This document shows, piece by piece, positions 24,417-29,550 of a DNA stretch of 64,000 bases; the stretch's first letter is position 1; each line of letters opens with the position of its first letter. Source of the stretch: Nibricoccus aquaticus (GTDB taxonomy: Bacteria > Verrucomicrobiota > Verrucomicrobiia > Opitutales > Opitutaceae); the NCBI RefSeq assembly GCF_002310495.1, contig NZ_CP023344.1:4357501-4421500 (forward strand), read 5' to 3'. The notes under the pieces are model-generated. The model ran no database searches and had not been told where the DNA came from. It saw only the letters and a list, made by a program, of their open reading frames with translations. A program made the translations under genes and the position numbers.

Positions 24417-25778
24417 ATGCGTTTCATTTCTACTCGCGGACAATCTCCTGCTCTTGGTTTCAGCGACGCCGTTGCCACCGGGCTCGCGCCGGATGGCGGG
24501 TTGTTTCTGCCCGAGACTTTGCCGTCGTTTGCGAACGATCTGAAACGCTTCGAGAAACTGAGCTACCCCGAACTCTGTTTCGAATTCCTCAAGGTCTTCG
24601 CGACCGACATCCCTCAAGAAACGCTGCGCGCGATCATCGCGAAATCGTACACGACCTTCTCGCATCCCGACATCGCACCGCTGAAACAGCTCAGCGAAAA
24701 ACTGCACGTCCTCGAACTCTTCCACGGGCCGACCCTCGCGTTCAAAGACTTCGCGCTCCAGCTCCTCGGCAATCTCTACGAATACCAGTGCCGCACGCGC
24801 GGTGAGACGATCAATGTCCTCGGCGCCACCTCGGGCGACACCGGCTCCGCTGCGATCCACGGCCTGCTCGGTAAACCCGGCACCGCGATTTTCATCCTCT
24901 ATCCCGACGGCCGCACCTCGCCGCTTCAGGAGCGCCAGATGGCCTGCACCGGCGCGGCCAATGTCTTCGCCCTCGCGATCGACGGCACCTTCGACGACGC
25001 GCAGAACGCGTTGAAGGACGTCTTCGGCGATCAGGATTTCCGGAAGCAATTCCGCCTCTCCGCGGTGAACTCCATCAATCTCGCCCGTGTGCTCGCCCAG
25101 TGCGTGTACTACTTGAGCGCGTTCCTCCGTCTTCCCGCCGCGCAGCGCGAAGAGGCTGAGTTCGTCGTCCCCACGGGTAATTTTGGAAATGTTCTCGCCG
25201 GCTGGATGCTCCAGAAAATGGGTGTGCCGATCCGCGGCTTCCGCGTCGCGACCAATCAGAACGACATTCTCTACCGCCTCTTCACGACTGGCGAATACGC
25301 AGTGTCCGACGTGCGTGCGAGTCTCGCGCCATCGATGGACATCCAGGTCGCGTCGAACTTCGAGCGCTTCCTCTATTTCAACGTTGGCCGCGACGGCGCG
25401 AAAGTCCGCGAGGTCATGCAGACTTTCAAGACGACCGGTCGCTACACGTTCGCGAATTTCGACAAGGACTCCTTCGACGCCTCGCGCTGCACCGATGCCG
25501 AGATTCCTGGCATCATCAAAGATGTCTACCGGAAGTACGGCTACATCGCCGATCCGCACACCGCGTGCGGCTTCAAGGACATCAAGACGGACCGCCCGAG
25601 TGTGATTCTCTCCACGGCGAGCCCGGCGAAATTCCCCGAGACGATCATCAAAGCCATCGGCACCGAGCCGACGCACCCGAGTCTCGAAGTCCTCAAAGCC
25701 AAGCCGCTCGTGAAGCACAAGATCGTCGCCGATCCCGCCACGATCAAAGCCTTCATCCGCGAGCACGCGGTGCGCTGA
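24417..25778 (+). CDS. thrC: Threonine synthase
   Basis: This PLP enzyme converts O-phosphohomoserine to threonine. It has 453 residues with the N-terminal MRFISTRGQSPALGFSDAVATGLAPDGGL pattern of the long (yeast/E. coli-like) threonine synthases. The PLP lysine is Lys110 in GPTLAFKDFALQLLG, and the phosphate loop is GATSGDTGSAA. Other motifs are NSINLARVLAQ, PTGNFGNVLAGWML, and ADPHTACGF. It completes a hom-lysC-thrC cluster that lacks thrB (homoserine kinase). Confidence 0.96.
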   Translation: MRFISTRGQSPALGFSDAVATGLAPDGGLFLPETLPSFANDLKRFEKLSYPELCFEFLKVFATDIPQETLRAIIAKSYTTFSHPDIAPLKQLSEKLHVLELFHGPTLAFKDFALQLLGNLYEYQCRTRGETINVLGATSGDTGSAAIHGLLGKPGTAIFILYPDGRTSPLQERQMACTGAANVFALAIDGTFDDAQNALKDVFGDQDFRKQFRLSAVNSINLARVLAQCVYYLSAFLRLPAAQREEAEFVVPTGNFGNVLAGWMLQKMGVPIRGFRVATNQNDILYRLFTTGEYAVSDVRASLAPSMDIQVASNFERFLYFNVGRDGAKVREVMQTFKTTGRYTFANFDKDSFDASRCTDAEIPGIIKDVYRKYGYIADPHTACGFKDIKTDRPSVILSTASPAKFPETIIKAIGTEPTHPSLEVLKAKPLVKHKIVADPATIKAFIREHAVR

Positions 25779-26323
25779 GTTTGTTTCTTCGTAGAGCTGG
25801 ATCAGAGGTCTGGCTCTAAAATTGAAAAATAGTTTGAGGGGGATAATACTTTCGCGCGTATAAATATTACCACCGCTTGACTTATCTGAGCGCGGAAATT
25901 GTTTCCCAACGTTCCCCATGATGCTTCGCGAAAAATATCCCCGATTCCATGTTCATTGCATGGACCACGTGGTCACACCGGGTGCTCCCGGTGCCGCGAG
26001 CTGACGAGTTTCCTCCGCGCTATTGTTTCGCGAAGAGCTCGCCAGAACTGAGCGAGCACCGGGGACAAATCTGAAATCACTGATGCGCTGATTCGCGTCG
26101 TGATTTCTCCACCCACGCCTCCGCGCCACTTTGGCTGAGTGCGTGTTTTCAACAAACTCAGTCCGCGCCATCGCGTAATCCCCGAAGGGGAAGCGATGGC
26201 TTTCGTCCGCCTCGAACTCGCTCAACTCATGTCGATCCTTCACCGCTCTGCGCGCCCGTGTGGGCCGTTTTCTCCACTCGTTTCAACCCTCGCTGGCATC
26301 GGCGCTTCTTCGGAGGTGCTGTC
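25779..26323. other. Intergenic region without a supported gene
   Basis: This 545-bp stretch has an AT-rich left half and a GC-rich right half. It holds a promoter-like pair (separate entry). No frame shows convincing protein composition, no tRNA fold was seen, and inverted GGGTGCTC/GAGCACC-type matches near 25980-26070 look weak. A decayed gene or a long leader of the downstream operon is possible. Confidence 0.4.
25822..25849 (+). promoter_or_regulatory. Possible sigma-70-type promoter
   Basis: TTGAAA (25822-25827) and TAATAC (25844-25849) are 16 bases apart in an AT-rich patch about 475 bp before the aldo/keto-reductase-like gene. By-eye match only. Confidence 0.3.
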
Positions 26324-27325
26324 ATGAATCAGCGTGTACTCGGCCGCACCGGGCTGCGCGTGTCGGAGCTCTGTCTCGGTACACTCAACTTTGGCTGGAG
26401 CGTCGGCGAAAAGCAGGCTTGGGCGTTGCTCGATGCTTATCGCGCCGCTGGCGGAAACTTTATTCAGGCTTCCGCGGTCTGTGAACCGGATGACGCGATC
26501 CCTGCCGTCGCCGAGGCGAGCGAGGAGTTTGTCGGACGCTGGTGGCGCGATCGGATGATTCCGCGCGAGGAATTGTTTCTCGCGACTCGCATCGTGATCC
26601 ACAACGCCCGTCCGCACGGCGCGGGCACGCTCGAAAGCTATATCCGCCGCTGCTGCGAGTCGTCGCTGGGACGCTTCCGCACGAATCACCTCGATCTGAT
26701 CATGATCGAGTGGAGCGAAAATCTTCCGTTGATGGATGACGTTCTTTTTGTGCTCAGCCGGCTGAAGCGTGCGGGGCTCGTGCGCTATCTCGGCGCGTCG
26801 GGATTTCCGGCGTGGCGGCTAATGGAGTCGCTGCATCGTTCGGCGCAGCGCGATGTCGATCGCTTCGAGGTGTTGCAGGCAGATTTTTCGCTGCTAGCCA
26901 ATTCTCGCAGCGAACTCGAGCAGCTCCGGCTTTGTCACGATTACCGGCTCGGGTTTCTCGCGCGTTCGCCGCTCGCGGGCGGTTTGCTCGCGAGTGCTGA
27001 CTCCGGTCGCCATGGACTTTCCACCACGCGCGCGCGCCGTCTGCAGCGTCAGTTTGCAGGCGTCGATGTCGGCGGACTACGCGCCGGGCTCACCGAGATC
27101 GCGGCGCGTCATCAACTCACGCTGCCGCAGACGGCGCTCGCGTGGGTGCTGGCCGACCCGGCTGTGACCGCGCCCGTGCTCGGCGTGAGTTCGGTCGAGC
27201 ATCTGGAGCCGCTGCTGCGCGTTCCCGCCGTAGGACTCACGTCTGCAGATTTTTCCTCGCTCAACGCCGACGAAACACCGGCCGGCAGCGAACCCGTTTC
27301 CACCCTCAACCTCATCCACTCATGA
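26324..27325 (+). CDS. Aldo/keto reductase-fold protein lacking the catalytic tetrad
   Basis: This 333-residue protein has AKR-superfamily features along its length: LGRTGLRVSELCLGTLNFG, the barrel segment LLDAYRAAGGNFI, LSRLKRAGLVRYLGASGF, ARSPLAGGLLA and the C-terminal cofactor-type VLGVSSVEHLEP. Aligning by eye with typical members, the tetrad positions Asp, Tyr, Lys and His are replaced by Gln48, Cys53, Arg89 and Glu129. It should therefore not be a normal oxidoreductase, though cofactor binding may remain. GGAGGTG precedes the ATG by a few bases, supporting this start. Its stop overlaps the start of the Rnk-like gene (ATGA). Confidence 0.8.
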   Translation: MNQRVLGRTGLRVSELCLGTLNFGWSVGEKQAWALLDAYRAAGGNFIQASAVCEPDDAIPAVAEASEEFVGRWWRDRMIPREELFLATRIVIHNARPHGAGTLESYIRRCCESSLGRFRTNHLDLIMIEWSENLPLMDDVLFVLSRLKRAGLVRYLGASGFPAWRLMESLHRSAQRDVDRFEVLQADFSLLANSRSELEQLRLCHDYRLGFLARSPLAGGLLASADSGRHGLSTTRARRLQRQFAGVDVGGLRAGLTEIAARHQLTLPQTALAWVLADPAVTAPVLGVSSVEHLEPLLRVPAVGLTSADFSSLNADETPAGSEPVSTLNLIHS

Positions 27326-27729
27326 ACACAAAACCCATCCACATTTCCCAATCCGACTACACCCGCATCCAGCTCCTCCTCTCCGCACTCCGCAGCGATC
27401 AACGCTCGGCCAAGGTAATCGAGAAGCTGCGCGGCGAACTCGAGCGCGCCGTCGTGCTCCCCGAACTGCCGCCGCATATCGTCGGCGTCGGTTCGACCGC
27501 GGATGTGCGCGATCTCGAATCGGGCGACCTCGACCGCTTCACGCTCACGCTACCCGAGCAAGCCGATGCGGCCCGCGGAAAACTTTCCCTGCTCGCGCCA
27601 CTCGGCACGGCGATACTCGGTTTTTCCGAGGGCGATGAATTTGCGTGGGAGATGCCTGGCGGCGTCCGCCGTCTGCGCATCGAACGCGTAACCCAACCTG
27701 CGGAGGCCGTCGTTTCCGCGAACTCATAA
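27322..27729 (+). CDS. Rnk/GreA-C-terminal-like protein (nucleoside diphosphate kinase regulator family)
   Basis: This 135-residue protein matches the Rnk pattern: a short helical N-terminus (SQSDYTRIQLLLSALRS) and a GreA-like C-terminal fold with PLGTAILGFSEGDEFAWEMP. Rnk-family proteins bind RNA polymerase without the GreA cleavage activity and in Escherichia or Pseudomonas affect Ndk levels. It is translated by overlap with the AKR-like gene and followed 19 bp later by a cupin, so the three form one operon. What it regulates here is not known. Confidence 0.8.
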   Translation: MNTKPIHISQSDYTRIQLLLSALRSDQRSAKVIEKLRGELERAVVLPELPPHIVGVGSTADVRDLESGDLDRFTLTLPEQADAARGKLSLLAPLGTAILGFSEGDEFAWEMPGGVRRLRIERVTQPAEAVVSANS

Positions 27730-27748
27730 ACAAAAACCAAACCATCGA

Positions 27749-28093
27749 ATGATCATGAATACCGCAGCCAATCCACCCAACGACACCAAGTGGCGCATGT
27801 CCAAAAACGTCCTCAACGCCGGCGAGCTCAACGGCTCGCTCACACTGATCGGACCGGGCTCAGAGCTCGAGCCTGAGACCTCGTCCGTCGAACGCGTCAT
27901 CTACGTCGCCCAAGGCGTGATCACCGCCGCGTTCTCCGCGGCCAACCACATTTTGCAGACCGACGACACGCTCGTAGTCCCGGCCGGCCGTTCGCTTGAG
28001 ATCCGCAATAGCGGTAACGCTCCGGCGAAGGTCCTCGTGATGTCACTGCCGTCGCGACGTCGCGCGGAGACGCCGCTGGTGGTGCTGAACTGA
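27749..28093 (+). CDS. Cupin-fold protein without metal-binding histidines
   Basis: This 114-residue protein looks like a single small cupin barrel. A strand-rich middle (GSLTLIGPGSELEPETSSVERVIYV) is followed by the second motif TDDTLVVPAGRSLEIRNSGN. The usual His-X-His and later His ligands of cupin motifs 1 and 2 are absent, so metal-dependent catalysis is unlikely; a sensor or structural role fits better. A second ATG at 27755 is an alternative start. It is the third gene of the AKR-like/Rnk operon and is followed by REP-type repeats. Confidence 0.65.
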   Translation: MIMNTAANPPNDTKWRMSKNVLNAGELNGSLTLIGPGSELEPETSSVERVIYVAQGVITAAFSAANHILQTDDTLVVPAGRSLEIRNSGNAPAKVLVMSLPSRRRAETPLVVLN

Positions 28094-28101
28094 GTCTGTT
28101 G

Positions 28102-28158
28102 TGTAGGTCAGCGAGCTTGCTCGCGCTCCGAACCGTGCCTGCAAGCAGGCTGCCTACA
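28102..28158. repeat. REP-like palindrome pair with compensatory changes
   Basis: The first unit starts TGTAGGTCA and holds the hairpin GCGAGC-TT-GCTCGC (28111-28124). The second unit is inverted (CCTGC-AA-GCAGG, then CTGCCTACA ending at 28158). Compared with the element at 22962, the stem pair changes T-A to A-T while pairing is kept. Confidence 0.75.
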
Positions 28159-28171
28159 TTCATAAAGTCCG

Positions 28172-28273
28172 AGGTGGAGCGCGCCGTCCCGGCGCGCTGT
28201 TCGAGAGGAGACCGCGATTCATCGTGTGTGATCTTCGACATCGCTCAGCGTGCGCGGAGCGCCCGCTCCACCT
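28172..28273. repeat. Structured repeat with 10-bp inverted ends
   Basis: AGGTGGAGCG (28172-28181) is inverted as CGCTCCACCT (28264-28273). Inside is a perfect 9-bp hairpin, AGCGCGCCG/CGGCGCGCT (28178-28198). It is adjacent to the REP pair and looks like a non-autonomous intergenic element. Confidence 0.55.
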
Positions 28274-28396
28274 TCCGAAACTTGAGTTCGGCAATAGCGG
28301 CGACGCCGCTTGTCATGCTCAACCGAGCGTAGCCTAATTTCAGTTCATTGGAGGCGTGAATCTGCGTCGTGCCTCCAATCGATGCCTGAGGATACT

Positions 28397-28864
28397 TTAT
28401 GAGGAGTGTTCATCTCCACCTACTTTGATTCGTTGGCCGAGGCTTTCGATATGCACTACGACGAAAGAATCTGAGGAGAGCGTGTACCGGTATGTTATGG
28501 TGAAGATACCTCCGTCTGATTTGCCTATGATAAACATACGGGCCGTGCCGTTAACAGAGTCACCTTCTTTTCTTCGTTTCCAATCCTCGGGCACATTCTT
28601 GCTGAAAAAGCGGCGTTCTTCTTTGGAGATGAGAGCAAAGGATGCGTCAGTAGGACTCCCAGTTATTGCTGTGATGGCAGGATGGGAAAAAGCGATTTTG
28701 TACAAATGGGAACGCTCAAGATCACGACTTGGATCACGCCATTTCGAAAACGCCAAAAATGCCAATAAAAGTCCGGACACAAAAACCGGAACGAAAACTA
28801 TTTCCTTCCATTTAAGGCCACGCTCAGGAGCGTCCGGCATCTCGTACTTGGCTATCGTGCTCAT
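28397..28864 (-). CDS. Small membrane-anchored protein of unknown function
   Basis: This 155-residue protein has a short cytoplasmic N-terminus and one transmembrane helix near residues 22-40 (KEIVFVPVFVSGLLLAFLAF). A soluble domain of about 115 residues follows. No family is recognised. By eye the DNA is clearly more AT-rich than its neighbours, with codons such as TTT, AAA and ATA, which could mean transfer or relaxed selection. It lies 20 bp downstream of the response regulator on the same strand and may be the last gene of the two-component operon. Confidence 0.6.
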   Translation of the reverse strand: MSTIAKYEMPDAPERGLKWKEIVFVPVFVSGLLLAFLAFSKWRDPSRDLERSHLYKIAFSHPAITAITGSPTDASFALISKEERRFFSKNVPEDWKRRKEGDSVNGTARMFIIGKSDGGIFTITYRYTLSSDSFVVVHIESLGQRIKVGGDEHSS

Positions 28865-28884
28865 GAATTAGCGCGTGGGGTTGG

Positions 28885-29550
28885 TCACAGCCCGTGATCC
28901 GTTTTCTTATGCTGCACGTACAGCGCCGTCGCTTGGGAGCGGCGGTTGACGTCGAGTTTGTCGAAGATGTTCGCGAGGTAGTTTTTGACTGTCTTCTCGC
29001 TGAGGTTCATGTCGGCGCCGACTTCCTTGTTGGTTTTTCCTTCGGCGATGAGCGCGAGGACGCGTTTTTCCTGCGGGGAAAGCGAGGTGAGCACGTCGTT
29101 GCCGGGGCCGCCGGTCTTCACGAGTTTCATCACGCGTGCGGTGATTGCCGGATCGAGAATCGATTTGCCGGCGGCGACATCGAGCACGGCCTGCACGAGA
29201 CCGCGGCCGTTGATTTCCTTGAGGAGATAACCGTGTCCGCCGGAGCGGATCGCTTCATCGACGAGGTGATCGTCCACGACGGAGGTCAGGAAGAGGATCT
29301 TCGTGTCGGGGAGTTTTTGGAGGATTTTCCGGCACGCATCGAAGCCCATGCCGTCGGGCAGTCGAATATCCATCAACACGACGTCGGGATGAAACTTCAC
29401 TACAGCATCGACGCCTGCGGCGACCGAGCCCGCTTCGCCGACGATCTGGATCGCGCGTTCGGCGGCGAGGAGGGCGCGCAGGCCCATGCGGACGAGTTCG
29501 CTGTCGTCGACGAGCAGGAGTTTGAGGGCGGGCGGGCGTGAAGCACTCAT
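28885..29550 (-). CDS. NarL/LuxR-family response regulator
   Basis: This 221-residue transcription factor has a receiver domain (acidic pocket Asp15/Asp16, phospho-acceptor Asp61 in LMDIRLPDGMG, Lys111 in GYLLKE). A LuxR-type HTH follows (about 155-210, with LSPQEKRVLALIAEGKTNKE and LSEKTVKNYLANIFDKL). The typical NarL length is 210-220. It shares a 4-bp overlap (ATGA) with the sensor kinase gene, so the two form a two-component system. Target genes cannot be deduced from the sequence. Confidence 0.93.
   Translation of the reverse strand: MSASRPPALKLLLVDDSELVRMGLRALLAAERAIQIVGEAGSVAAGVDAVVKFHPDVVLMDIRLPDGMGFDACRKILQKLPDTKILFLTSVVDDHLVDEAIRSGGHGYLLKEINGRGLVQAVLDVAAGKSILDPAITARVMKLVKTGGPGNDVLTSLSPQEKRVLALIAEGKTNKEVGADMNLSEKTVKNYLANIFDKLDVNRRSQATALYVQHKKTDHGL

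Follow-up and report, generated by a model that had tools for sequence, protein, structure and literature searches.

What does a protein with the aldo/keto reductase (AKR) fold do once all four residues of the catalytic tetrad are replaced, and why does its gene run directly into one for an Rnk-like protein? The question is raised by three genes in the window, which is the whole analysed stretch of 64,000 nucleotides from Nibricoccus aquaticus, a genome represented by a single contig of 4.73 Mb. The features concerned are as follows:

26324..27325, + strand, AKR-fold protein of 333 aa without the D-Y-K-H tetrad (Pfam, alignments, AlphaFold2 model)
27322..27325, + strand, ATGA shared by the AKR stop codon and the Rnk start codon (sequence)
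27322..27729, + strand, Rnk-like protein with Rnk_N and a GreA/GreB C-terminal domain (Pfam, NCBIfam, 3bmb profile match)
27749..28093, + strand, small cupin without His at the usual metal-ligand columns (Pfam, alignment)

The coordinates, the 4-bp overlap and the 19-bp gap given in an earlier note on this DNA proved correct, and all three genes lie on the + strand. The AKR stop codon TGA occupies 27323–27325 and the Rnk-like ATG begins at 27322; 19 bp separate the end of the Rnk gene (27729) from the cupin start (27749), and a further cupin ATG is located at 27758. The ATGA overlap suggests that Rnk could be translationally coupled to the AKR, and the AKR, Rnk and the His-less cupin would probably be carried on one transcript with this coupling. 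Promoter scanning of 25700–28900 returned three sites (0.6 expected), one of which is on the + strand (25822–25850), about 470 bp upstream of the AKR with two terminator-like sites intervening; terminator-like sites in the same interval number three (3.4 expected). An Rfam scan of 25000–29000 gave no match above the gathering score. Downstream of the cupin lies a palindromic G+C-rich stretch (28100–28260). One 16-base piece of it occurs a single time in the window, as does another in the genome; at the level of exact matches the stretch is therefore no high-copy repeat.

The AKR matches Pfam PF00248 (6e-44, 150.7 bits, cut-off 24) and thereby has the family and fold of AKR enzymes, but lacks the Asp-Tyr-Lys-His tetrad expected of a functional one. 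The Rnk-like protein exceeds the Pfam cut-offs of both PF01272 (2e-17) and PF14760 (3.5e-8). The cupin fold is recognized by PF07883 (8.6e-8, 32.2 bits, cut-off 27.2).

The nearest solved relatives within the AKR superfamily are Tas (1lqa), Kv-beta2 (1zsx), DepB (8hwn) and AKRtyl (8jwn). The window protein shares with them the full (beta/alpha)8 fold, 23–28% identity in structural alignment, many fold motifs and Q185. Aligned with DepB, its tetrad columns read Q48 for D, C53 for Y, R89 for K and E129 for H, and alignment with AKRtyl gives the same positions. The AlphaFold2 model (pLDDT 88.1, pTM 0.87) matches Tas, Kv-beta2 and DepB with Z scores of 35.8, 35.7 and 35.4, respectively, which makes gross misalignment unlikely; on these matches together with a 67-row alignment, a misaligned tetrad is rejected. 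That alignment, which the earlier note had proposed as a check, shows D, Y, K and H at the tetrad columns in 32 of 32 canonical AKRs and not in the window AKR, so that the note's assignment of Gln48, Cys53, Arg89 and Glu129 to an AKR fold is upheld by both alignment and model. The window protein belongs to a clade in which position 48 is Q in 31 of 35 rows, position 89 is R in 30 and position 129 is E in 24; position 53 is unconstrained (14 different residues over the 35 rows, Tyr in one).

This clade of 35 proteins (SH-aLRT 100) comprises 32 members from the window's family and three from a second family within the order, in a tree obtained by a quick search without bootstrap after removal of the tetrad and 159/160 columns. 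Its closest neighbours are DYKH AKRs of the window's family (support 92). Nine pairs of closely related clade AKRs give dN/dS values of 0.11–0.20, which rules out pseudogene decay of the branch, although one copy (genome G194) is frame-broken. Judged from these sequences, the tetrad is lost on one branch of the tree, and purifying selection acts afterwards. The clade would be a single-origin example of an enzyme family from which the catalytic residues have gone while the protein was retained for another job.

Tetrads were read for 30 places made into loci in an order-wide search. Searches of the class and the phylum (335 and 387 genomes) revealed no further clade member above the threshold, the three new class matches being DYKH proteins, and a search for related loci across genome contigs gave a single weak AKR match with 28% identity in a Bacillota record. 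The AKR threshold of 1e-72 overlooks diverged copies, three of which turned up only via their Rnk; counts of presence are therefore too low, and little weight attaches to absence outside the order.

Linkage was analysed in 200 genomes of the family, sampled from a larger group. With the branch profile, 55 AKR places were obtained at E <= 1e-72, which by their tetrads are 33 branch AKRs in 25 genomes and 22 DYKH proteins; Rnk genes (89 bits or more; at least 65 places in at least 48 of the 200 genomes) were joined to them by position. Among the Rnk matches listed, Rnk lies within 3.7 kb of 28 of the 33 branch AKRs and of 0 of the 22 canonical ones (Fisher p 6e-11, with phylogeny ignored, genomes not independent and many contigs short). 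Likewise among the matches listed, Rnk is present in 25/25 genomes possessing a clade AKR, compared with at least 48 of 200 overall. The five branch AKRs remaining have no Rnk on their own contig, and four of these adjoin HPF. The window's genome has two Rnk genes by profile, each beside a branch AKR; its second locus (L036) is arranged as MPE-Rnk-MscS-AKR-66-aa ORF. In the second family of the order, the AKR is beside Rnk in 3/3 genomes. Gene order differs among loci (AKR-Rnk, Rnk-AKR or divergent transcription), which indicates that the linkage has outlived rearrangement, and it is also retained in several lineages with other tetrad letters (QSCR, LDTR, EWRE).

The surroundings were compared in 31 mapped loci (L064 excluded), with module families defined on the same loci in which they were counted and named from representatives. 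Rnk is found in 26 of them, HPF in 11 and either of the two in 30. Calcineurin-like phosphoesterase is encoded in 11 loci, homospermidine synthase in seven, a short ORF of 58–83 aa in seven, cupin in three, and MscS-like, PAS and KefB-like proteins in two each. None of the module genes was found in 11 canonical AKR loci clustered identically (0/11), several of which are distant from the clade or truncated by contig ends. MPE, homospermidine synthase, KefB and cupin genes are also seen with Rnk where the AKR is lacking. Both HPFs tested score above the TIGR00741 cut-off. HPF/YfiA ribosome hibernation factors thus adjoin clade AKRs in 11/31 loci, but are absent from the window's own operon.

The window Rnk resembles E. 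coli Rnk (3bmb) and the related 2pn0 in combining Rnk_N with a GreA/B C-terminal domain, the 3bmb profile match covering residues 1–129. It differs in its score (94.5 versus 109 bits, below the NCBIfam PRK05753 equivalog cut-off) and in its gene neighbourhood, which is the one set out above. E. coli Rnk is reported to bind RNA polymerase and to compete with Gre factors and DksA (PMC4598747), and Rnk to rise in anoxic growth arrest of P. aeruginosa (PMC8632087); both papers describe the function of Rnk as unknown. Searches of open-access literature, judged by title and the start of the abstract, listed no account of an AKR-Rnk pair or of this AKR branch.

The AKR is probably a growth-arrest regulator rather than an enzyme, because the tetrad is lost, this state is kept by selection and Rnk or HPF genes are nearly always adjacent. 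In its full form, the reading that a single-origin, non-reductase branch acts as a regulatory TIM barrel within a growth-arrest/stress gene set has, in our estimation, an even chance of being right. The sequence data show tetrad loss on one branch, purifying selection since then, new preferred charged residues in the former active site and persistent Rnk/HPF linkage. Judging from the named families, Rnk would bind the secondary channel of RNA polymerase and HPF would idle ribosomes, and such a set would therefore throttle both transcription and translation; the reports on Rnk together with the HPF linkage point to growth arrest. The least certain step concerns the barrel itself, which would bind a small, probably charged, ligand in a rebuilt pocket or alternatively serve as a pocket-closed scaffold, and in either case would adjust Rnk or HPF. 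A bolder version, in which retired enzymes constitute a new class of growth-arrest regulators whose charged sensor pocket gates Rnk and, in sister loci, HPF, is offered tentatively and considered rather unlikely. If this gating were real, one sensor type would control both RNA polymerase and the ribosome; if the barrel senses something at all, a metabolite state would be linked both to RNA polymerase and to ribosome idling. The recurrent partner gene provides a concrete handle on Rnk function.

The proposal in the earlier note of a binding or sensing module, as opposed to a metabolic enzyme set, is accordingly retained in part: the tetrad-less AKR is conserved and tied to Rnk, whereas the sensing of NADPH has lost ground. 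The observation goes beyond chance, given the single clade, the purifying selection and the Rnk linkage, and extends beyond one operon; the lock of three genes is not general. The AKR is genetically tied to Rnk, but the cupin accompanies the pair in 3/31 loci; the genome search suggested for the three neighbours hence returned a stable association of the AKR with Rnk or HPF and a loose one of the cupin.

The main rival is a new enzyme, in which Q48, R89, E129, D187 and R214 would form a pocket for another reaction on a stress-related metabolite, perhaps without NADP(H). Residues conserved in the clade and not so in canonical AKRs include Q48, R89 and E129 at three of the tetrad columns, as well as D187 (24/35), R208 (30/35) and R214 (28/35), among others. 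In the AlphaFold2 model, barrel strands 2, 3, 4, 6 and 7 carry positions 48, 89, 129, 187 and 214, respectively, with 129, 187 and 214 each at the final residue of the strand. Such placement of conserved replacements would suit an enzyme, which would likewise display preferred charged residues in the former active site; homospermidine synthase and phosphoesterase, adjoining in 7 and 11 of the 31 loci, also speak for it. However, the full Q-R-E/D-D-R set is present in only 17 of the 35 rows, and the linkage is kept with QSCR, LDTR and EWRE. In every one of the 35 rows, one and only one of positions 89 and 129 is Arg (89 in 30 rows, 129 in 5). This exchange amounts to three independent changes on the tree, for which the floor of a sign test is 0.25, and mutual information does not single out columns 89/129 (rank 4167 of 46352 pairs). 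D187/R214 reads K187/E214 in the three second-family rows. Both exchanges, R89/E129 to x/R129 and D187/R214 to K187/E214, may represent internal salt-bridge pairs, and as such would resemble catalytic groups less. A new enzyme is regarded as a minority possibility.

The cofactor columns bear on this rival and on the redox cofactor sensor of the earlier note. At S159, N160, Q185, Y188 and K225, which we take to be the columns contacting nicotinamide or cofactor, the window AKR has S, G, Q, F and A, that is, two of five canonical residues, with Tyr to Phe as a conservative change. Of the 32 canonical AKRs, 32 retain S159, 24 N160 and 28 K225, the corresponding numbers among the 35 clade members being 9, 10 and 4; Q185 is kept in 33/35 of the clade, and an aromatic residue at 188 in 29/35, as a new enzyme might also require. 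The idea of a redox cofactor sensor is weakened by these changes, though the window retains S159 and Q185, and on the sequences NADPH sensing would be the weaker part of the reading. Unlike the nearest solved AKRs, the window clade has all four catalytic residues replaced, has mostly dispensed with S159, N160 and K225, prefers new charged residues and shows the Rnk/HPF linkage.

It is improbable that the AKR is a co-regulated bystander, which would share a stress regulon with Rnk and HPF, be functionally unconnected to Rnk and may be decaying. A mirror-tree comparison of AKR and Rnk (near-duplicate loci, second-family loci and one of the two AKRs of L048 excluded) fits a bystander in showing no co-evolution signal (r 0.14 on 20 pairs, a value reached in 889 of 5000 permutations); where a genome has two loci, the true AKR-Rnk pairing ranks 11th of 16. 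Moreover, of the 65 Rnk genes among the matches listed, 40 lack a branch AKR within 10 kb. These results also count against the regulatory reading, the missing signal specifically against direct AKR-Rnk pairing, as do the five branch AKRs without Rnk on their contig and the module genes seen with Rnk alone. Inspection of 31 of these 40 places, in 29 regions, located an AKR copy within about 1 kb in four regions: three diverged copies below the search threshold (QARD, QARD and QAKD in G171, G088 and G157) and the frame-broken one near Rnk in G194 (L064:7001–7973, QTRE in its first part), which suggests decay of one copy. Single origin, wide retention, dN/dS well below 1 and a linkage surviving changes of gene order all argue against a bystander.

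Kv-beta (AKR6) subunits offer a precedent for an AKR barrel serving another machine as a regulatory subunit, and by analogy the window protein could dock on an MscS-like or KefB-like channel or transporter and couple cell state to ion flow. We consider this quite improbable. The fold matches Kv-beta2 (Z 35.7) and genes for such partners occur in 3/31 loci (L036, L048, L058), but 28/31 loci have none, and the window AKR scores 74.2 against 365.4 bits for the NCBIfam Kv_beta subfamily, below its cut-off. Kv-beta retains bound pyridine nucleotide and slow catalysis, according to PMC9317154, whereas the window clade has no tetrad and several of its cofactor residues are changed.

An ordinary AKR working through an unusual tetrad is highly improbable: although the fold, Q185 and aromatic 188 are conserved, S159 is retained in the window and some AKRs (5-beta-reductases) tolerate a change of His to Glu on its own, the position of the proton-donor Tyr is unconstrained, Asp and Lys are lost, most clade members differ at S159, N160 and K225, and Asp, Tyr, Lys and His are given for 99, 97, 97 and 88% of annotated AKRs in PMC5479831.

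The cupin is an occasional companion. AKR-Rnk-cupin arrangements are those of the window, G052 and G004 (the 3/31 loci), and in five further regions (L122, L128, L137, L140, L141) Rnk is followed by cupin with no AKR in the fetched stretch. Columns were compared on the His metal-ligand motif that we assume for cupins. The window cupin has no His at these columns, as the earlier note had claimed; in the alignment, the relatives L038 and L039 have them. Ligands are in place in the G052 and G004 cupins; L128 and L141, like the window, have none, L140 has one and L122 two (L137 falls outside the alignment). Cupins with incomplete His ligands recur beside Rnk.

Other neighbours may be noted. In three genomes of one genus (L118, L119, L120), a KefB-like antiporter directly adjoins Rnk, with no AKR in the fetched stretch. 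The 58–83 aa ORF ('MQGWAR...'), near AKRs in 7/31 loci (for example L036:6436–6636), gave no Pfam or NCBIfam family match in a scan of one representative. The phosphoesterases L046:4921–5613 and L047:4899–5591 (G162 and G132) are without several letters of what we take to be the metal-site motif, and many other copies keep them, yet dN/dS between the two is 0.19. They hint at what could be a second case of enzymes losing catalysis in the cluster.
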